A DNA stretch of 45,428 nucleotides from Bacteroidota bacterium (GTDB taxonomy: Bacteria; Bacteroidota; Ignavibacteria; Ignavibacteriales; Ignavibacteriaceae): NCBI GenBank assembly GCA_021815365.1, contig JAKAGZ010000020.1, positions 1-45,428 on the forward strand. Direction: 5' to 3'. The stretch's first letter is position 1. Every line of letters starts with the position of its first letter. Shown here piece by piece: positions 4,688-34,152 of this stretch. Both the position numbers and the translations under genes were made by a program. Below the pieces are notes generated by a model. The model saw only the letters and a program-made list of their open reading frames with translations. It did no database searches and was not told the origin of the DNA.

Positions 4688-6058
4688 ATGGAAAAAGATA
4701 TTAATATTACTGATGAGAAAATTATGACTGCAACAGATAAAATATCAGCAGAGAATGTTCACTCAACACTAAAAAAATATATGCTGGCAGATGGCTTTAG
4801 TCTTGTTCTCGATCTGAAAAAAAGTCAGGGTTCGAAAATCGTAGATGAAAAAACAGGCGAAGAATATATTGACTTCTATACTTTCTTTGCATCAAATCCA
4901 TTGGGCATGAATCATCCGAAATTAAGCAGCCCTGAGTTCAGAGAAAAATTATCGGAGAGCGCTGTTGTCAAACCTTCGAACTCTGATATTTACTCCCGAG
5001 CTATGGCGGAGTTTGTTTCAACCTTTGCAGAAATTGCAAAGCCGGATTTTATGAAGCACCTGTTCTTTATTTCAGGCGGGACATTGGCGGTTGAGAATGG
5101 TTTGAAGGTTGCTTTCGACTGGAAAGTTCAGAAGAATTTTCAGAAAGGATACAAAGAAGAGAAGGGACAACAGGTTCTTCATTTCAGGGAAGCTTTTCAC
5201 GGAAGAAGCGGCTACACTATGTCTCTTACGAATACTGATCCGGTCAAAACAAAATATTTCCCGAAGTTCAATTGGCCAAGAATCATAAATCCGAAAATTA
5301 CTTTCCCGGTTGAACAGCATCTCGATGAAATAAAAAATCTTGAAGCAAAAGCAATAGATGAAATTTATTCTGCAATAAAAAATAACAAAGATGATATTGC
5401 CGTTATGATAATTGAGCCTGTACAGGGCGAAGGCGGCGATAATTTTTTCAGGAAAGAGTTTTTTATCAAGCTAAGAGAAATTGCAGACGAAAATGAAATA
5501 CTATTAATGTTTGATGAAGTTCAGACTGGCATAGGTTTGACCGGAAAGCTGTGGGCTTATGAACATTACGTAAAGCCTGATATAATTTCATTTGGGAAAA
5601 AGACACAGGTGTGTGGAATAATGGTCTCAGACAGAATTGATGATGTCACTGAAAATTGTTTCAACATTCCAAGCAGAATAAATTCAACCTGGGGCGCTAA
5701 TCTTGTTGATATGGTAAGATCGAAAAGGATACTCGAAGTGATAAAAGAAGAAAGTCTTGTTGAAAATGCACGAGTGCAGGGAGAATATTTGAAAGAGAGC
5801 CTCCTAAATATTCAGACTGAATTCCCGAATTTAATTTCAAACGCAAGAGGGCTTGGGCTTATGTGTTCCTTTGATCTCCCGAATACACAGCAAAGAAATG
5901 ATTTCAGAAAATTATGCGAGAAAGAAAAACTGCTGATACTTGGCTGTGGAGTAAAAACTATCAGGTTCAGACCTGCGTTGAATGTTAAGAAGCAGGACCT
6001 CGACGAAGGTTTGAAAATAATCAGGAAAGTTTTAAGTTTACTCTCGTCAAATAATTAA
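4688..6058 (+). CDS. lat: L-lysine 6-transaminase
   Basis: The 456-residue class III aminotransferase closely follows lysine epsilon-aminotransferase: FFASNPLGMNHPKL near residue 70, FHGRSGYT near 170, Glu243 in IIEPVQGEGG, Asp276 in MFDEVQTG, and the PLP lysine, probably Lys304, in SFGKKTQVCG. Glu243 occupies the position described as the substrate-discriminating glutamate in the Mycobacterium enzyme. It transfers the epsilon-amino group of lysine to 2-oxoglutarate, giving 2-aminoadipate 6-semialdehyde and glutamate in the cytoplasm. The divergent ALDH7 gene would oxidise that product. Start ATG 4688 is fixed by an AAAGGAGG site. Two hairpins follow the gene. Confidence 0.9.
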   Translation: MEKDINITDEKIMTATDKISAENVHSTLKKYMLADGFSLVLDLKKSQGSKIVDEKTGEEYIDFYTFFASNPLGMNHPKLSSPEFREKLSESAVVKPSNSDIYSRAMAEFVSTFAEIAKPDFMKHLFFISGGTLAVENGLKVAFDWKVQKNFQKGYKEEKGQQVLHFREAFHGRSGYTMSLTNTDPVKTKYFPKFNWPRIINPKITFPVEQHLDEIKNLEAKAIDEIYSAIKNNKDDIAVMIIEPVQGEGGDNFFRKEFFIKLREIADENEILLMFDEVQTGIGLTGKLWAYEHYVKPDIISFGKKTQVCGIMVSDRIDDVTENCFNIPSRINSTWGANLVDMVRSKRILEVIKEESLVENARVQGEYLKESLLNIQTEFPNLISNARGLGLMCSFDLPNTQQRNDFRKLCEKEKLLILGCGVKTIRFRPALNVKKQDLDEGLKIIRKVLSLLSSNN

Positions 6059-24856: not shown

Positions 24857-27800
24857 ATGTCAATGGAAAAAATCGGAATGTATGATCCTTCATTCGAACA
24901 CGATGCCTGCGGTCTTGGTTTTGTAGTTGATATCAGCGGCACAAAATCCAGGAATATTATTGATATGGGGCTTAAGATGATGAGAAACCTTGAGCATCGT
25001 GGTGCTGTAGGTGCAGACGAAAATACAGGCGACGGCGCAGGTATATCCATTCAAATGCCCGATGAATTTATGAGAAAGGTCTGCGCAGCCGAAAACATAA
25101 CCCTGCCTGAAGCAGGAAAATATGCCGTTGGAATGTTATTCCTGCCGCAGAATAATATTTTAAGAAAAGCCTGCGAAACAATAATTGAAAAAATAATTGA
25201 TGATGAAGACCAGCTTTTGTTAGGCTGGCGCGACGTTCCTGTCAATCCGGATGTTCCGGGCAAAGGATCAAAATTAATGATGCCTTTTATAAGGCAATGC
25301 TTTTTGCAGGCTAATGATAATATTACTTCTCAGGATGAATTCGAGAGAAAGCTTTTCCTCATCAGAAGAATTATTGATAAAAGGATTAGAGAAGAGCTGA
25401 AGTGCGATAGAAGCAAATATTATGTCCCCTCTTTCAGTTCAAGAGTTATTATTTATAAAGGAATGCTGCTTGCCGATCAATTGACCGCATTCTATTCTGA
25501 TCTACTCGATCCCGACATGAAATCGGCATTTGCTATGATACATCTGCGTTTTTCAACAAATACTTTTCCAACGTGGGACCTCGCTCATCCTTTCAGGATG
25601 ATTGCCCACAATGGCGAAATAAATACTTTGCGCGGAAATAAAAACTGGATGTCTGCCAGGGAAGCCGTAATGGAATCAGAATATTTCGGCAAGGATCTTA
25701 AAAGAATGCTTCCGATAATTATGGAAGGGCAAAGCGATTCGGCAACATTTGACTCGGTACTTGAATTGCTGGTAATGAGCGGAAGAAGTCTGCCGCACGC
25801 CGTGATGATGATGATACCAGAAGCTTGGTCAAAAAATGAAAATATGGATGAAAAATTAAAAGCGTTTTATGAATATCACGCAACATTTATGGAACCATGG
25901 GATGGTCCTGCTGCAATTGTTTTTACAGACGGCAAATATATCGGAGCGAGCCTCGATAGAAATGGACTGCGCCCTGCGAGATATACAATCACTGAAGATA
26001 ATATCGCCATACTTTCTTCTGAAACAGGCTTGCTGGACATCCCGGAAGAAAAAATAATTAGAAAAGGTAAACTTCAACCGGGAAAAATGTTTTTGGTTGA
26101 TACTGAAAGAGGAAAACTAATTCACGACGACGAAATTAAAAGTGAAATCACCAGCAGAAAGCCTTATGGCAAATGGGTGAAAGAAAATATTCTTAAGCTT
26201 GACGAACTGCCCGATCCATTATTTAAGAGTGAAGCCAGCAATACAGAAATTTTAAACCTTCAGAAAATATTTGGCTACACGAAGGAAGATATAAAAATTG
26301 TAATTACTCCAATGGTGGAAAGCGGTCAGGAAGCGGTCGGATCTATGGGAACCGACGCATCATTATCTGTGCTTTCGGAAAAGCCGCAGCCGCTGTTCCG
26401 GTATTTTAAGCAGATGTTTGCGCAGGTTACTAATCCGGCTATTGATCCGATAAGAGAAGAACTGGTAATGGAATTAACAACCTATATCGGACCCGAGCAG
26501 AATTTATTAGATGAAACTCCGCAGCATGCGCACAGAATTGAATTGAAAAATCCCCTTCTTTCAAATACGGAATTTGAGAAGCTGAAAACGTTATCTAATG
26601 TTCATTTTCGTTCAATAACTATTCCGATTCTCTTTAACGTGAAAAAGAAACACGGTATGCGCGAGCGTCTTGATGAAATCTGCAGCCAGGCTGTTGATGC
26701 TGTAAGCCCGCTTCGCAGCGAGGCGAGCAGCGGCTATTCTTTAATAATACTTACTGACAAAGGCGTTAACGAAATTCAGGCACCAATTCCAAGTTTGCTT
26801 GCTGTTTCTGCAGTTCATCACACACTTATTAAAAAAGGATTAAGAACAAAAACTGGGATAATAATCCAAAGCGGTGAGCCAAGGGAAGTTTCGCACTTTG
26901 CACTTTTATGCGGATACGGAGCCAATGCAATAAATCCTTATCTCGCTTATGATACAGTGAAATATCTTTTTAAAAATGGGCATATTAACGGAGTGGCGAG
27001 TTATAAAGATGCGAAGAAAAATTATGTGAAAGCCGTTAGTAAAGGATTGCTTAAAGTTTTTAGCAAGATGGGAATAAGCACCTTGCAGTCATATTGCGGT
27101 GCACAGATTTTCGAGGTAGTGGGTCTCGATAGTGAAATCGTTTCAAAATATTTTACAGGTACCCCTACAAAGATTGAAGGACTCAGTCTTGAAATGCTTG
27201 GTGACGAAGCGATAAAAAAGCACAAAGCTGCGTTTGATGTTTTGAAAAATTCTGATTGCCTTGAAAGCGGCGGTTTATATCATTACAGGAGAGACGGTGA
27301 ACATCATTTGTGGAATCCGTTGACGATCTCAAAGCTTCAGCAAAGTACATGGAATAATGAATTCAAGACTTTTAAGGAATATTCGGCTTTGATAAATGAT
27401 CAGGATGAAAAGAGAGTAACTCTCAGAAGTCTGCTGGAATTTAAAAAACTTCCGAAGCCGATACCGATTGAAGAAGTAGAAGCAGCAAAAGAAATAGTAA
27501 AAAGATTTTCTACCGGTGCGATGAGTTTTGGTTCAATCTCCTGGGAAGCACATACTTCATTAGCAATTGCTATGAACAGGATTGAGGGAAAATCAAATAC
27601 CGGTGAAGGTGGTGAATCAGCAGAAAGATTTATTACACTTGAAAACGGCGACACCATGCGTTCTGCAATCAAACAGGTTGCGTCTGCAAGATTTGGAGTA
27701 ACAGCAAATTACCTGGTAAATGCAAATGATTTGCAGATTAAAATTTCGCAGGGTGCAAAACCAGGTGAAGGCGGTCAGCTCCCCGGCTTTAAAGTAGATA

Positions 27801-29413
27801 AGATAATTGCAAAAGTCAGACACAGCACACCGGGCGTTACTCTTATCAGTCCGCCCCCGCATCATGATATTTATTCGATAGAAGATCTCAAACAATTAAT
27901 TTTTGATCTTAAAAACATAAACCCAAAAGCGCGGGTAAGTGTTAAGCTGGTTTCCGAATCGGGAGTTGGAACTATTGCCGCCGGTGTTGCAAAAGCTAAA
28001 GCCGATCATATTCTTATCAGCGGACACGATGGTGGAACAGGCGCCAGCCCGATTTCTTCAATACAATATGCAGGCTCCCCATGGGAATTAGGGCTAAGTG
28101 AAACTCATCAGACTCTTGTACTTAACGGACTGCGCGACAGAGTCTACCTTGCAGTTGACGGACAAATAAAAACCGGAAGAGATGTTGTAATCGGCGCACT
28201 TTTGGGCGCAGAAGAATTCGGGTTTGCTACAGCACCGCTTGTAACGCAGGGATGTGTAATGATGAGGAAGTGTCATTTGAATACCTGCCCCGTTGGAGTT
28301 GCAACACAAGACCCGGTTCTTAGAAAAAGATTTGCGGGTAAGCCTGAATACGTTGTAAACTTTATGTTCTTTATTGCTGAAGAGGTAAGAGAACTTATGG
28401 CAGAACTCGGCTTCAGAAAGTTTGATGAGATGGTCGGTCGAACGGATAAACTTGAGCAGGTTAAGAGTAAAGCGAAAGCAAAATACAGGGGAATTGATCT
28501 TAGCAGAATTTTATACAAACAGGAACCATTGTTTGAAACTCAGCAGTTCAGGACACGAGCACAGAATCATAAAATTGAAGATCAGCTTGATAATGAAATC
28601 CTGAAAAAAATATTGCACAGCACAAAGATCAGCGGGATTGCTGCTGCAAAGCAAACTATAAAAAATACTGACCTTACTGTTGGCGCATTAATTTCAAATA
28701 AGATTTGTGAACTCTACGGTGAAGAAGGTTTAACGCCGGGCAGCATAAAACTCGAGTTTGAAGGAACAGCCGGGCAAAGCTTTGGCGCCTTCCTGGCAAA
28801 AGGAGTTCAGTTAAAATTATACGGTGAAGCAAACGATTACGTTGGCAAAGGATTATCCGGCGGCAGAATAATTGTAAGGCTTCCAAGAGGATCGAAATTG
28901 GTCTCTTATGAAAATATTATTATTGGAAATACCTGTTTATATGGTGCTACAAGCGGTGAAGCATTTATTAACGGCGTAGCCGGCGAACGATTTGCAGTGA
29001 GAAATTCAGGAGCTACAGCAGTAGTTGAAGGTGTTGGTGACCATGGCTGCGAATATATGACCGGCGGCAACGTGGTTGTACTTGGTAAAATCGGAAGAAA
29101 TTTTGCAGCAGGAATGTCGGGCGGAGTTTCATATCTATGGAACTGCACGGGAAACTTATTAAAAAATATTAATCCCGAACTTGTTAATATTGAGTACCTG
29201 GATGATTTTGATTCCCAAAAAGTTTTTAGCCTCATCGAAAGACATTTCTATTATACTTATTCATCGAGAGCAAAATTCATACTCGACAACTGGAAAATTG
29301 AAAAGCTAAACTTTATGAAGATCATCTCCCTTGAATACAAAGAAGCAATTACTAAAATGATAACTGAATACGATAGACCCGGTATTGAAAAAATAACAGT
29401 GGAGGGAAATTAA
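24857..29413 (+). CDS. gltB: Glutamate synthase, large (alpha) subunit
   Basis: The 1518-residue protein has all four GOGAT domains: class II glutaminase with the nucleophile Cys18 exposed after cleavage of a short propeptide (MYDPSFEHDACGLGF), a central domain, the FMN/2-oxoglutarate synthase domain with GEGGESAERF and GHDGGTGASP, the 3Fe-4S cysteines in CVMMRKCHLNTCPVG, and the C-terminal beta-helix (GLSGGRIIV, GERFAVRNSGATAVVEG). Glutamine plus 2-oxoglutarate give two glutamates. Starts ATG 24857 and 24863 are both possible; an AAAGGT site favours the second by spacing. gltD follows after one base. Confidence 0.96.
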   Translation: MSMEKIGMYDPSFEHDACGLGFVVDISGTKSRNIIDMGLKMMRNLEHRGAVGADENTGDGAGISIQMPDEFMRKVCAAENITLPEAGKYAVGMLFLPQNNILRKACETIIEKIIDDEDQLLLGWRDVPVNPDVPGKGSKLMMPFIRQCFLQANDNITSQDEFERKLFLIRRIIDKRIREELKCDRSKYYVPSFSSRVIIYKGMLLADQLTAFYSDLLDPDMKSAFAMIHLRFSTNTFPTWDLAHPFRMIAHNGEINTLRGNKNWMSAREAVMESEYFGKDLKRMLPIIMEGQSDSATFDSVLELLVMSGRSLPHAVMMMIPEAWSKNENMDEKLKAFYEYHATFMEPWDGPAAIVFTDGKYIGASLDRNGLRPARYTITEDNIAILSSETGLLDIPEEKIIRKGKLQPGKMFLVDTERGKLIHDDEIKSEITSRKPYGKWVKENILKLDELPDPLFKSEASNTEILNLQKIFGYTKEDIKIVITPMVESGQEAVGSMGTDASLSVLSEKPQPLFRYFKQMFAQVTNPAIDPIREELVMELTTYIGPEQNLLDETPQHAHRIELKNPLLSNTEFEKLKTLSNVHFRSITIPILFNVKKKHGMRERLDEICSQAVDAVSPLRSEASSGYSLIILTDKGVNEIQAPIPSLLAVSAVHHTLIKKGLRTKTGIIIQSGEPREVSHFALLCGYGANAINPYLAYDTVKYLFKNGHINGVASYKDAKKNYVKAVSKGLLKVFSKMGISTLQSYCGAQIFEVVGLDSEIVSKYFTGTPTKIEGLSLEMLGDEAIKKHKAAFDVLKNSDCLESGGLYHYRRDGEHHLWNPLTISKLQQSTWNNEFKTFKEYSALINDQDEKRVTLRSLLEFKKLPKPIPIEEVEAAKEIVKRFSTGAMSFGSISWEAHTSLAIAMNRIEGKSNTGEGGESAERFITLENGDTMRSAIKQVASARFGVTANYLVNANDLQIKISQGAKPGEGGQLPGFKVDKIIAKVRHSTPGVTLISPPPHHDIYSIEDLKQLIFDLKNINPKARVSVKLVSESGVGTIAAGVAKAKADHILISGHDGGTGASPISSIQYAGSPWELGLSETHQTLVLNGLRDRVYLAVDGQIKTGRDVVIGALLGAEEFGFATAPLVTQGCVMMRKCHLNTCPVGVATQDPVLRKRFAGKPEYVVNFMFFIAEEVRELMAELGFRKFDEMVGRTDKLEQVKSKAKAKYRGIDLSRILYKQEPLFETQQFRTRAQNHKIEDQLDNEILKKILHSTKISGIAAAKQTIKNTDLTVGALISNKICELYGEEGLTPGSIKLEFEGTAGQSFGAFLAKGVQLKLYGEANDYVGKGLSGGRIIVRLPRGSKLVSYENIIIGNTCLYGATSGEAFINGVAGERFAVRNSGATAVVEGVGDHGCEYMTGGNVVVLGKIGRNFAAGMSGGVSYLWNCTGNLLKNINPELVNIEYLDDFDSQKVFSLIERHFYYTYSSRAKFILDNWKIEKLNFMKIISLEYKEAITKMITEYDRPGIEKITVEGN

Positions 29414-29414
29414 T

Positions 29415-30851
29415 TTGGGAAAGCCAACCGGATTTTTAGAGTATGAGAGAATATCTCCTTCAAAAGAAGATGTTAAAACCAGGATAAAAAATTTTAAAGA
29501 ATTTGAGCATTCTTTCGATGAAGATACTGCCAGAAAACAAGGCGCCCGATGTATGGAATGCGGAATCCCGTTTTGCCATGGTGATACCGGCTGCCCGGTT
29601 CAGAACTTTATTCCTGAATGGAATGATCTTGTTTACAAGGGAAAATGGGAAGAGGCATTAAAGAATTTGCACTCAACTAATAACTTCCCGGAATTTACCG
29701 GCAGACTTTGTCCCGCGCCCTGTGAAAGTGCCTGCGTGCTCGGAATAAATTCTTCTCCGGTGACCATTAAATCTATCGAAAGAATGATTATTGACCGGGG
29801 ATTTAATGAAGGATGGGTAAAGCCGAAAAGAAATGAAAACAAAACTTCAAAAAAAGTTGCAGTGATTGGTTCAGGTCCATCAGGTATGGCTGCAGCGCAG
29901 CAGCTTGCAAGAGCAGGACACTCCGTAGATCTTTTCGAAAAGAATGATAGGATCGGAGGCTTGCTGAGATATGGAATTCCAGATTTTAAATTAGAAAAAT
30001 GGCTGATCGACAGAAGACTTGACCAGATGAAGGAAGAAGGGGTAAAATTTTTTACAGGCGTTAATATTGGCGATGAAATAAAAATATTGGAGCTACAAAA
30101 TAATTATGATGCAATTGTTCTTGCCTGCGGTTCAGAATCTCCGAGAAATATTGAAATCCCCGGCAGAGAATTAAAAGGAATTCATTTCGCAGTGGATTAC
30201 CTTACACTGCAAAATAAATTTAATGCCGGCGATAATGTAGAAGTTATCAGCGCAAAAGGAAAAAATGTTATTGTACTCGGAGGAGGCGATACAGGATCTG
30301 ATTGTATAGGTACAGCGATCAGGCAAGGTGCAAAAAGTGTCACACAGTTAGAAATAATGCCGCAGCCACCAAAAGAAAGAAACAAAAACAATCCCTGGCC
30401 TTACTGGCCTTTTATTTTCAGAACCTCTTCAAGTCAGGAAGAAGGTGCTGTGAGAAAATGGAGTGTAAGTACTAAAAAATTTATAGGTAACAAAGACGGC
30501 AGCGTTAAATCTTTAAGTTGTATAAAAGTTGAATTTCAAGCCGGCAAGTTTATTGAAAAAGAAAATTCGGAGTTTGAACTCCCTGCTGAGCTTGTACTAA
30601 TTGCAGCGGGATTCACAGGTCCTAAAAAGAATAGTTTGTTTAAAGGTCTGGTTGATATGGGAATTGAGTTAGATCAGCGTGGAAACATTAAAGCAGATTT
30701 CGGCGATGTTAAGAATGCCCACAAAACAAACCTTGATAAAATATTTGTGTGCGGCGACATGAGACGCGGGCAATCACTGATTGTATGGGCGATTGCCGAA
30801 GGAAGAAAATGTGCCGAAAGCGTTAATAAATTTTTGAGAGATGCAAAATAA
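29415..30851 (+). CDS. gltD: Glutamate synthase, small (beta) subunit
   Basis: The 478-residue NADPH-dependent subunit has the N-terminal low-potential Fe-S cysteines CMECGIPFCHGDTGCP and CPAPCESAC, the FAD site VAVIGSGPSGMAAAQQLA and the NADPH site VIVLGGGDTGSDCIG. It passes electrons to GltB. The start is TTG 29415, one base after the gltB stop, with GGAGGG eight bases upstream; the N-terminus MGKPTGFLEYER is the normal one. This is the last gene of the ilv-leu-glt operon, and the 308-bp region that follows is convergent with amt. Confidence 0.96.
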   Translation: MGKPTGFLEYERISPSKEDVKTRIKNFKEFEHSFDEDTARKQGARCMECGIPFCHGDTGCPVQNFIPEWNDLVYKGKWEEALKNLHSTNNFPEFTGRLCPAPCESACVLGINSSPVTIKSIERMIIDRGFNEGWVKPKRNENKTSKKVAVIGSGPSGMAAAQQLARAGHSVDLFEKNDRIGGLLRYGIPDFKLEKWLIDRRLDQMKEEGVKFFTGVNIGDEIKILELQNNYDAIVLACGSESPRNIEIPGRELKGIHFAVDYLTLQNKFNAGDNVEVISAKGKNVIVLGGGDTGSDCIGTAIRQGAKSVTQLEIMPQPPKERNKNNPWPYWPFIFRTSSSQEEGAVRKWSVSTKKFIGNKDGSVKSLSCIKVEFQAGKFIEKENSEFELPAELVLIAAGFTGPKKNSLFKGLVDMGIELDQRGNIKADFGDVKNAHKTNLDKIFVCGDMRRGQSLIVWAIAEGRKCAESVNKFLRDAK

Positions 30852-31159: not shown

Positions 31160-32695
31160 TTACTCAACTCCCTTAATTCTTGCGACTTCATATCCTTCTA
31201 TGCCCATTTCAGGCATATCGAGACCCTGTATTTCATCTTTTGCTGAAACACGGAGTCCTATGATTTTATCACAAATCTTGAAGAACACATACATAACAGA
31301 AAAAACAAAAACAAAACAAACAACGCCGCCAATTAATTCTGCAAAAAACTGTCCGGCATTTCCATAAAATAAACCTGTAACAGTACCGGGAATTCCATTC
31401 CATCCGTCTCCGTAGCTTCCATCAGCAAATAGTCCGAGTGCGAGAACGCCCCAAAATCCATTTACGCCATGAACCGCAACCGCACCAACAGGATCATCAA
31501 TTTTTAATTTATGATCAATGAAGAAAACTGAAAAAACTACTAAAACACCTGCGATAGCACCTATCAAAACAGCGGAAGGAGCGTTAACGAATGCGCAGGG
31601 TGCAGTAATCGCAACTAAACCTGCAAGCATTCCGTTCGCCATCATGCTTGGGTCAGGCTTTCCGTATTTTATCCACATATATAACATAGCTGTAAATGCA
31701 CCGCTTGCAGAAGCTAACATTGTGTTTGTGGCAACAATGCTTATTCTTAAATCAGTACCTGCAAGGGTAGAACCCGGATTAAAGCCAAACCATCCAAATG
31801 CTAAAATGAATGTTCCTATAATAGCCATTGGAATGTTGTGCCCCGGAATAGCATTAGATGAACCATCTTTATTGTACTTGCCTAATCTCGGACCCAGAAC
31901 AATAGCGCCGGCAAGAGCAGCTACTCCTCCAACTTCGTGAACAACAGACGAACCGGCAAAATCAACGTGACCATGTCCAAGTCCAAAAAGGGAACCAAGC
32001 TGAGATAGCCATCCCCCGCCCCAAACCCAATTACCAAATAAAGGGTACACTACCATTGATATAAAAAATCCGTAAATAATAAATGGCAGGAATCTCCATC
32101 TTTCAGCCATAGCTCCTGTTGGAATGGTAGCAGTTGTATCCATGAATACCATCTGAAAAAGAAAGAGTGTGAAGATGCCAACATCATAAACCTGAGGATT
32201 TAAAAAGAATCCTGAGAATCCCGCTAAACCAAAGTTTTTACCAAAGAGAGAGATTGTAAATTCATTGGTAAGACCGGGGGTACCTCCAAGAGCAGCTATA
32301 CTTCCAACTCCTCCAAACATTAAAGCAAAACCGCAAATCCAAAATCCTAAAACACCGATGCCGTAAATCATAAAATTCATTCCCATAGTATGTGCAACAT
32401 TCTTAGCCTGGGTAAAACCTGTTTCCACCATAGCAAAACCGGCTTGCATAAACATTACTAAAAATCCGGTTATCAAAGTCCACATAATATTTATTGCTAT
32501 TCTGTTATGTCCTACAGCATCGCCAATCTCTGTAATTGTGGGAGAACCAACTTTTGCTGCCGGTACATCCTGGATAGTTCCCGTTTTTGCACCAGTCGGG
32601 TCGGCTTGTGCATTTACACCTGGAACTGCAATAATCAGCATAAACGCTAATAAAGCCGACCAAAATATTGAAACATTGAATTGTGTTTTTCTCAT
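31160..32695 (-). CDS. amt: Ammonium transporter (Amt family)
   Basis: The 511-residue protein has a signal peptide (hydrophobic core ending near VNAQA), then about eleven membrane spans. Amt landmarks are the first pore histidine in VVHEVGGVAALAGA, the second in AVHGVNGFWGVLALG, and GFNPGST and LGPRLGKY. It conducts ammonium across the inner membrane as a trimer, blocked by the GlnK T-loop. An AAAGGAG site sits eight bases before ATG 32695. It is the last gene of a glnK-porin-amt operon and converges on gltD, so uptake and assimilation genes are side by side. Confidence 0.95.
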   Translation of the reverse strand: MRKTQFNVSIFWSALLAFMLIIAVPGVNAQADPTGAKTGTIQDVPAAKVGSPTITEIGDAVGHNRIAINIMWTLITGFLVMFMQAGFAMVETGFTQAKNVAHTMGMNFMIYGIGVLGFWICGFALMFGGVGSIAALGGTPGLTNEFTISLFGKNFGLAGFSGFFLNPQVYDVGIFTLFLFQMVFMDTTATIPTGAMAERWRFLPFIIYGFFISMVVYPLFGNWVWGGGWLSQLGSLFGLGHGHVDFAGSSVVHEVGGVAALAGAIVLGPRLGKYNKDGSSNAIPGHNIPMAIIGTFILAFGWFGFNPGSTLAGTDLRISIVATNTMLASASGAFTAMLYMWIKYGKPDPSMMANGMLAGLVAITAPCAFVNAPSAVLIGAIAGVLVVFSVFFIDHKLKIDDPVGAVAVHGVNGFWGVLALGLFADGSYGDGWNGIPGTVTGLFYGNAGQFFAELIGGVVCFVFVFSVMYVFFKICDKIIGLRVSAKDEIQGLDMPEMGIEGYEVARIKGVE

Positions 32696-32750: not shown

Positions 32751-33455
32751 TTATAGTGAAATACCCGCTATTAAAAAACTTTGTTTTAAATATGGATTTA
32801 ATATGTAGCAAACGTGAACAGGTAAATTAAACTTGTCAGTTATTAAAACATTTTTAGTTGCTGCAATGCCGAGATTTATGAGACCAGCTTTTGTTGTCGC
32901 ATACCATGCACTGGCAGCAGGAGTAAAACCGGCAACGAATAAAAGAGATATCTCATTTACAGTTACAGGATATCCAACCTGTATATAAGCTGACTTATCC
33001 GGATCGTTTTTAAAATTATAATAACCGTTTAGCTGGATAGGGAAACTTACGGGTCCCGAGTAGCCCAGCCCGGCTTCCAGCACGTGTGAGCCATTAATGT
33101 TATACTTGAAAAAGCTCAGTCCCGAACTCGGGTAGTAGTAGTCTGTATACAAAATTGAAAAACTCCCGCTCGATGCAGTTGTTATACTATAACTTGCGAA
33201 CAGATCGTTTTCCGAATACACAGGAATACTATCGGAAAAGAAATTATATGCGCCCCAGGCACCAATAACAAAACCTACGATGCCTAAACTAAGTGAAGGC
33301 TGGAAGCTCGGTGAATCCCCGAAGTCAAGTCCCCTCCAGTTATACCTGCTGTAAATATCTGCACCGGCGCTGACTCTAACCTGCGGAAAAGATGAGCAAC
33401 AGAAAAAGATAATAAGTGAAGCAGCCGTCAACAAAAATTTTATCAATGCTTTCAT
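32751..33455 (-). CDS. TorF-family putative outer-membrane porin
   Basis: The 234-residue protein has an N-terminal signal peptide (KFLLTAASLIIFFCCSSFPQ) and then amphipathic beta strands starting VSAGADIYSRYNWRGLDFGDSPSFQPSLSLG. The YSRYNWRG-PSFQPSL pattern is the signature I associate with TorF/Gcw_chp beta-barrels. Alternating aromatic and polar residues continue to the C-terminus. It probably lies in the outer membrane. It is between glnK (30 bp upstream) and amt (55 bp downstream), which suggests a role in letting ammonium or another nitrogen source through the outer membrane. A GAGGT site precedes ATG 33455. Function is inferred from position. Confidence 0.75.
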   Translation of the reverse strand: MKALIKFLLTAASLIIFFCCSSFPQVRVSAGADIYSRYNWRGLDFGDSPSFQPSLSLGIVGFVIGAWGAYNFFSDSIPVYSENDLFASYSITTASSGSFSILYTDYYYPSSGLSFFKYNINGSHVLEAGLGYSGPVSFPIQLNGYYNFKNDPDKSAYIQVGYPVTVNEISLLFVAGFTPAASAWYATTKAGLINLGIAATKNVLITDKFNLPVHVCYILNPYLKQSFLIAGISL

Positions 33456-33485: not shown

Positions 33486-33875
<390 letters not shown>

Positions 33876-33894
33876 CTAACAGGAAGACCAATTC

Positions 33895-33930
33895 CCTAAT
33901 AGCAGGACTACCATTTCTAAGGCTATTAAG
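33895..33930 (-). repeat. Hairpin in the glnK leader
   Basis: On the plus strand CCTAATAGC (33895-33903) faces GCTATTAAG (33922-33930). In the minus-strand leader RNA this gives a 9-bp stem with one G-U pair and an 18-base loop. It also carries the CCTWATA-like motif found in the flanking palindromes. Confidence 0.5.
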
Positions 33931-33938
33931 CAATTATA

Positions 33939-33953
33939 CCTTAATTATTAAGG
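33939..33953. promoter_or_regulatory. Palindrome CCTTAATTATTAAGG just downstream of the glnK start site
   Basis: A perfect 7+1+7 palindrome. It lies a few bases after the predicted glnK transcription start (about 33959, minus strand), where a bound repressor would block elongation or initiation. It resembles the palindrome on the other side of the promoter at 34001-34016. Confidence 0.5.
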
Positions 33954-33965
33954 ATAACTGTCAGC

Positions 33966-33994
33966 AATATATTATTAATTAAATAATATGTCAA
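33966..33994 (-). promoter_or_regulatory. Sigma70-type promoter of glnK-porin-amt
   Basis: On the minus strand consensus TTGACA (33989-33994) and TATATT (33966-33971) are spaced 17 bases apart. Initiation would be near 33959, leaving a 5' leader of about 135 bases. No sigma54-type GG-N10-GC element is evident here. Palindromes at 34001-34016 and 33939-33953 bracket it. Confidence 0.65.
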
Positions 33995-34000
33995 GTATTT

Positions 34001-34016
34001 CCTAATAAATATTAGG
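34001..34016. promoter_or_regulatory. Palindrome CCTAATA-AA-TATTAGG upstream of the glnK -35
   Basis: A perfect 7-2-7 palindrome six bases upstream of the -35. In addition ATTAGGGAAT at 34011-34020 has a perfect inverse copy ATTCCCTAAT at 33891-33900 in the leader. Together with 33939-33953 these look like repeated sites for one dimeric regulator. Confidence 0.5.
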
Positions 34017-34152
34017 GAATATTTTTGGGTGCTTTTTAAACTTATTTACGATAAGAGAATAAGGTTCGCTGTTGCCGGTGTGTGCTGTTGCTACTAAGGT
34101 TATCAAAAAACAGATAAGGTTATAATTATAGGAACAGGTGTGTTTATATTAT

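Follow-up and report, generated by a model that had tools for sequence, protein, structure and literature searches.

A phased palindrome array upstream of glnK as a candidate operator of the Lrp/AsnC regulator encoded with glnA in Ignavibacteriaceae and relatives

The glnK-porin-amt operon and its promoter

The window, i.e., the whole 45,428-nt stretch of DNA analyzed here, carries three consecutive genes on its minus strand: glnK (33486-33824; PF00543), encoding a P-II protein, an ORF encoding a predicted outer-membrane barrel protein (32751-33455), and amt (31160-32695; PF00909 and TIGR00836), encoding an ammonium transporter. The barrel ORF between glnK and amt, which we take to be TorF-like, did not match any Pfam or NCBIfam family at 1e-3. 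Its product carries an SRYxWRG motif, is modeled by AlphaFold with 12 strands (pLDDT 80.8), and has OmpG/KdgM-type barrels as weak matches in the PDB (E ~5e-4 to 3e-3). As this ORF was found again in many amt clusters of relatives, it may encode a channel in the outer membrane that cooperates with ammonium uptake. Genes whose translations resemble GltB and GltD are located at 24857-30851 on the plus strand, convergent to amt; no box of the type described below was found upstream of gltB among the top paired matches of the window.

The predicted glnK promoter consists of a -35 hexamer, TTGACA (33989-33994), and a -10 hexamer, TATATT (33966-33971), on the minus strand with a 17-nt spacer. Its predicted transcription start is at approximately 33959, and box positions are counted from this predicted start. 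A search of the 376 nt preceding glnK did not reveal a -24/-12 (σ54) element although the same genome encodes RpoN, which sets this operon apart from glnK-amtB under NtrC-σ54 control, where the targets are the same; the σ70-type assignment made in a first-pass annotation of this DNA is supported. That annotation had also noted one palindrome just above the -35 and another just below the start, and both are indeed present. The perfect palindrome CCTAATAAATATTAGG (34001-34016, plus strand reading) is located 6 nt upstream of the -35 and the perfect palindrome CCTTAATTATTAAGG (33939-33953) lies immediately downstream of the predicted start. They are the only palindromes with arms of at least 7 and a spacer of at most 2 at 33891-34020. 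Among 3000 dinucleotide shuffles of this segment, at least one perfect palindrome of comparable size appeared in 14%, whereas two CCT..AGG palindromes per 130 bp were never observed (0/3000), showing that the CCTAATAAATATTAGG/CCTTAATTATTAAGG pair is beyond chance.

Other elements described at first fared less well. The perfect ATTCCCTAATA/TATTAGGGAAT pair is present (33891-33901/34010-34020) but not significant, since perfect inverted repeats of at least 10 bp arise in 6.6% of shuffles. For the CCTAATAGC/GCTATTAAG hairpin (33890-33903/33922-33935), the arms could be found and are 86% complementary, but a role as a structure or regulator site is unsupported; folding of the glnK leader RNA was no better than that of shuffles (z -0.41) and the element scored below 2 with the regulator matrix introduced below. 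This imperfect hairpin (33890-33935) was thus rejected as a part of the system. No Rfam match was found within the window.

The 16-bp form CCTAATA-N2-TATTAGG is the single exact CCTWATANNTATWAGG site of the 3.09-Mb genome. With two mismatches, CCTWATANNTATWAGG matched 37 sites genome-wide compared to 108 for the reversed control; with one exact site and no regulon, this form was rejected as a regulon consensus because it is too narrow. The conserved site is a 15-bp CCTWAWWWWWTWAGG that recurs every 31 bp, and the exact 16-bp CCTWATANNTATWAGG is not general. The second-best CCTWATANNTATWAGG site (G000:C66:19964) was excluded from the counted targets. This palindrome, CCCTAATTTTTATTAGGGC (G000:C66:19964-19979; L032:1501-1516), is located above the TTGACA of a LacI-type gene and behind a sugar-permease ORF, and is probably the site of another factor or a terminator.

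A 15-bp box at 31-bp spacing upstream of lrp-glnA and amt clusters

In the 3.09-Mb genome to which the window belongs, the pattern CCTWAN{5,6}TWAGG was found at 14 sites compared to 43 for the reversed control, and is therefore not enriched as such. Two of the 14 sites are at glnK and one is upstream of a gene encoding an Lrp/AsnC regulator (lrp; G000:C44:85683-86129), where the box CCTAAATTATTAAGG is located 7 nt above the ATG. As glnA begins approximately 30 nt past lrp, the two genes appear to form an lrp-glnA operon. An lrp ortholog was found in all 41 relatives; excluding the own genome, full-length copies share 56-78% identity. In 38 of 39 loci, glnA is located downstream of lrp in the same orientation, at a distance of 9-64 nt in 37 loci and 244 nt in one. 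Upstream of lrp, 26 of 30 regions showed a match of at least 9/10 to CCTWANNNNNTWAGG, whereas 200 single-base shuffles gave 0.44 such regions on average and never more than 4. In the same 30 regions, a second CCTWANNNNNTWAGG match stood out at a distance of 31 bp (mean 6.87 vs 3.55, sd 0.64). A symmetric weight matrix was then built from 39 lrp(-glnA) promoters, i.e., the upstream regions of the 41 genomes with lrp, leaving out G022 (a contig-edge fragment) and G023; it yielded the 15-bp consensus CCTWAWWWWWTWAGG, with boxes 31 bp apart. A third match, CTTAGATATTAAG, is found 31 bp further in the own genome (G000:C44:86106-86118) and at other lrp loci; it falls within the first lrp codons (Leu-Asp-Ile-Lys) and may be explained by coding constraint.

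The training set of this matrix did not include any amt or glnK promoter. It was applied to 34 amt regions of ~5-10 kb, comprising the window, 31 matching regions of other genomes, L048 and L059; L046, L047 and L049, which match contigs of G055, G031 and G071 in length, were each counted once, and L050, scored separately, showed 18.1 above its first gene. In 33 of the 34 regions, the best pair of boxes at 31-bp spacing was located within 400 nt upstream of an amt-cluster gene, even though the upstream zones counted represent 7.7% of the scanned sequence. In the 34th region (L198), the best pair is located 637 nt upstream of amt, with the second-best pair ~160 nt above a match to the next amt on the same contig. 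In L059, a long GC-rich insert (4730-4990) without an Rfam match separates the boxes from glnK. The mean top score was 21.2 at a spacing of 31 and 5.4-12.2 at other spacings between 20 and 45. Column-permuted matrices, which retain AT-richness, reached a mean top score of 5.8 (maximum 16.7) and placed their top match upstream of the cluster in a mean of 12.5 of the 34 regions (maximum 33). Since permuted matrices thus also favor AT-rich upstream DNA, the control rests on the scores and not on the number of hits alone.

A matrix built from lrp promoters of two other families (16 promoters) ranked the glnK operator of the window first (20.8, next match 5.1) and was correct for all 10 regions of the family to which the window belongs. 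P-II genes without amt nearby, used as negative control, scored below 0 in 19 of 19 cases, with none above -0.6, whereas 10 of 13 P-II genes from loci that include amt or the porin scored at least 11.3; in the three low-scoring amt-linked loci, glnK sits behind another cluster gene. By comparison, a two-box pattern (at most 2 mismatches) searched genome-wide in 41 genomes yielded, among the matches listed, 90 forward sites vs 86 for the reversed control. As these counts are similar, the signal is positional. For the own genome, the same pattern matched 5 sites vs 0 for the reversed control among the matches listed.

Several other paired matches were observed. Three more two-box matches in the own genome are located on C48 (score 16.7), C80 (19.6) and C98 (10.9). 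Among the matches listed, and as read from translations, pairs were found in two relatives above an amino-acid permease or above an outer-membrane ORF followed by a permease, and in two relatives above another type of amt.

Within the window, the matrix identified CCTTAATTATTAAGG (33939-33953; centered at ~+13 of the predicted glnK start and found at the same position in relatives) as the top single box of all 45 kb, with a score of 18.8 compared to 11.7 for the runner-up. Exactly 31 nt from this main box is a slot with the weak box ATTTAATTAATAATA (33970-33984, minus strand reading; score 2.9), which is centered at ~-18 in the -35/-10 region; in relatives, this slot is occupied by CCTTATTAAATAATA (L199), CCTAATTAATTAATA (L200) and CCTCATTAAATTATA (L228). 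One 31-bp step above this slot is CCTAATAAATATTAGG, centered at ~-50, a 16-bp variant that is one base longer than the matrix site and scores 5.0 with the 15-bp matrix. In the other direction, 31 nt downstream of CCTTAATTATTAAGG, is the half-conserved box CCTTAGAAATGGTAG (33908-33922, minus strand reading; centered at ~+44, score 2.3), and the 33908/33939 pair is the second-best two-box match in the 45 kb. By score, the +13 box is thus the only strong one, as the -18 and +44 boxes reach 2-3. Judged from sequence, the series of sites at ~-50, -18, +13 and +44 indicates that CCTAATAAATATTAGG and CCTTAATTATTAAGG belong to a single phased array that occupies one helical face.

A similar arrangement was found in relatives. 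The window shares boxes at -18 and +13 of the predicted start with L199, L200, L202, L208, L225 and L228, boxes at ~+13 and +44 of predicted starts are present in about a dozen other amt loci, and in lrp promoters the boxes are mostly located at -8 and +23 of the predicted start. When extra boxes with a score of at least 7 were identified near the 34 pairs, 9 of 12 deviated by no more than 1 nt from a multiple of 31 (binomial p 1.2e-7 under a uniform null). The first-pass annotation had interpreted the glnK palindromes as multiple binding sites of one dimeric nitrogen regulator. This reading is supported by the presence of the motif at other nitrogen genes, as it was found above lrp-glnA in the same genome, and by its presence above the glnK/amt clusters of relatives. 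Where the sites are located, how they are spaced and conserved, and how they are linked to lrp can be read directly from the sequences.

The Lrp protein and its distribution across the phylum

The product of lrp belongs to the Lrp/AsnC family, as PF13412/PF13404 (N-terminal HTH) and PF01037 (AsnC/RAM ligand-binding) were found above cut-off, and its best PDB matches are PH1519 and E. coli Lrp. In an alignment of 75 rows (72 distinct), the recognition helix reads approximately S[ILV]PS.SERL, and an effector loop G-[EDQ]-[GS]-[ST]-H was found in all 75 rows, followed by IQSW in most. All the named NCBIfam equivalogs (Lrp, AsnC, LysM, haloarchaeal Lrp, LrpA, LrpA1) were far under cut-off, including NCBIfam Lrp (90.6 bits vs a cut-off of 233) and TranRegLrp_Halo (47.7 bits vs 190). 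E. coli Lrp (PDB 2gqq) shows full-length homology (78 bits) and its operators are 15-bp AT-centered sites with 3-nt flanks; however, its loop reads GDFD where this clade has GEGSH, the sites of the clade are flanked by CCT/AGG, and the candidate regulon of the clade's Lrp is a small nitrogen regulon. The consensus sites of GlnR/TnrA, NtcA and AmtR differ from the boxes described here.

Similar gene arrangements and responses are already known from archaea. In Haloferax mediterranei and Halobacterium salinarum, lrp is found beside glnA and has been linked to nitrogen metabolism, and Halobacterium salinarum Lrp has been reported to affect glnA, with activation described (PMC8229911). While an Lrp/AsnC gene adjoins glnA in both systems, the haloarchaeal lrp and glnA are described in that paper as oppositely oriented with separate promoters, whereas lrp is co-directional and just upstream of glnA here; unlike in the haloarchaeal system as presented there, glnK-amt has the same operator as lrp-glnA here. 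A glutamine-responsive protein, Sa-Lrp of Sulfolobus acidocaldarius, has been reported to bind the control regions of glnA, gltB and gdhA, using paired AT-rich sites and wrapping the DNA, with D102 and K126 being key to the glutamine response (PMC3584215). The clade shares with Sa-Lrp the protein family and paired AT-rich sites, which in the clade are known from sequence, but lacks the acidic effector-loop residue (GDND) of the glutamine-responsive Sa-Lrp/Grp type. In our alignment, the GDND aspartate of the related archaeal chain 2efn/2e7w, the residue numbering of which would equal that of Sa-Lrp, is replaced by the serine of GEGSH. Given this altered loop, the effector of the clade's Lrp need not be glutamine.

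Among 395 genomes of the phylum, the Lrp protein was found at E<=1e-35 in at least 269. By comparison, Amt was found at E<=1e-60 in just 32 of the 96 genomes of the order, indicating that the ammonium operon is patchy whereas lrp is nearly universal. Twenty distant lrp loci were hand-picked among the matches listed, mostly as the best-scoring ones outside the order; a glutamine synthetase gene is located downstream of lrp in 15 of these loci and a σ54-activator gene in 5. A Pfam scan of 10 downstream genes identified 5 type III glutamine synthetases, 3 type I-like ones and 2 σ54 activators, and the other downstream genes were identified by tblastn or reading frame. The best paired match of the 4-kb locus was above lrp in all 20 loci, including those with 58-62% GC, and the best single box was above lrp in 19, with a single box of at least 10 found in 17. 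As paired scores were low (1.6 to 11.3) in 8 of the 20 loci, the single box is more informative at those. The box is also kept above lrp where a glutamine synthetase is not encoded downstream, indicating that it is tied to lrp and not to glnA. In five loci of one family (L314, L315, L316, L318 and L319), an lrp with a strong box is followed by a σ54-activator gene with a Fis-type HTH.

Outside the order, a pair scoring at least 10 was found within 350 nt above amt/glnK in 7 of 29 amt loci, and many loci were without one. In the genomes for which no lrp was listed, the three amt loci reached a pair score of at most 6.3. One genome, G064, has a paired box before glnK, yet an lrp was not found in it at E<=1e-5; a congener has one.

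Proposed mechanism and alternative explanations

Taken together, these data make it likely that the palindrome cluster upstream of glnK is an operator of the Lrp/AsnC regulator encoded by lrp-glnA, and that phased dimers of this regulator wrap σ70 promoters, probably repressing them. Lrp dimers have been described to bind imperfect AT-centered palindromes of 13-17 bp that are two or three turns apart on the same face (PMC2995911), and CCTWAWWWWWTWAGG is a palindrome of this size class with an AT-rich center, while the 31-bp spacing represents three helical turns. According to this model, Lrp dimers would bind the 15-bp CCTWAWWWWWTWAGG sites on one face of the DNA; with such spacing, an oligomer covering approximately -50, -18, +13 and +44 could wrap the σ70 promoter of glnK-porin-amt, and the paired sites over the -10/start region of lrp-glnA would allow autoregulation of lrp. 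When nitrogen is plentiful, ammonium uptake and glutamine synthetase would likely be repressed, and nitrogen limitation would relieve this repression. We thus infer Lrp as the binder, and likewise its wrapping of the DNA, its repressive action and nitrogen status, conveyed by glutamine or another effector, as its signal.

The same Lrp could occupy the array as an activator or dual regulator, with the wrapped complex aiding RNA polymerase under nitrogen limitation. Extra boxes well upstream of the start in several relatives and the activation of glnA reported for halobacterial Lrp (PMC8229911) are consistent with this explanation, but the most constant boxes cover -18/-8 and +13/+23 in both promoters, which suits blocking, so that activation seems possible but rather unlikely. 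It appears more doubtful still that a different dimeric regulator binds the boxes and that lrp is merely one of its targets. While the metagenome-assembled genome G064, with its boxes and no lrp detected at E<=1e-5, would fit this explanation, the fact that all 20 distant loci keep the box above lrp, even where a glutamine synthetase is lacking downstream, argues against it, as do 15-bp AT-centered sites at three-turn spacing, which are typical of Lrp proteins (PMC2995911).

Explanations that do not involve a DNA-binding protein are considerably less probable. The palindromes can be drawn as hairpins of the glnK mRNA, but control through an RNA leader is very improbable given the fold z-score and the lack of an Rfam match in the window reported above; moreover, the -50 palindrome is not transcribed from the glnK promoter. 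Chance palindromes in AT-rich intergenic DNA could account for one perfect palindrome, as the frequency among shuffles shows, but hardly for two of the CCT..AGG type, and their conservation and spacing in relatives already contradict this explanation, which we consider the least probable of all.

Within the open-licence PMC literature searched, we did not find a paper on how nitrogen assimilation is transcriptionally controlled in this group, nor a phylum-conserved, co-directional lrp-glnA operon that shares a phased operator with glnK-amt. A candidate regulator, its operator, the geometry of the sites and a small set of targets can now be named across many genera. We tentatively suggest, as a possibility somewhat short of an even chance, that the orthologous, phylum-wide Lrp clade with the GEGSH loop may represent an ancestral switch of nitrogen assimilation that takes the role of NtrC or GlnR, wrapping the σ70 promoters of the particular glutamine synthetase (type I, divergent or III), transporter for ammonium, or permease that is present in a given lineage, and reading its signal other than via classical contact with a free amino acid. 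The findings presented here connect a bacterial phylum with a pairing of Lrp and glnA that has been described for archaea.
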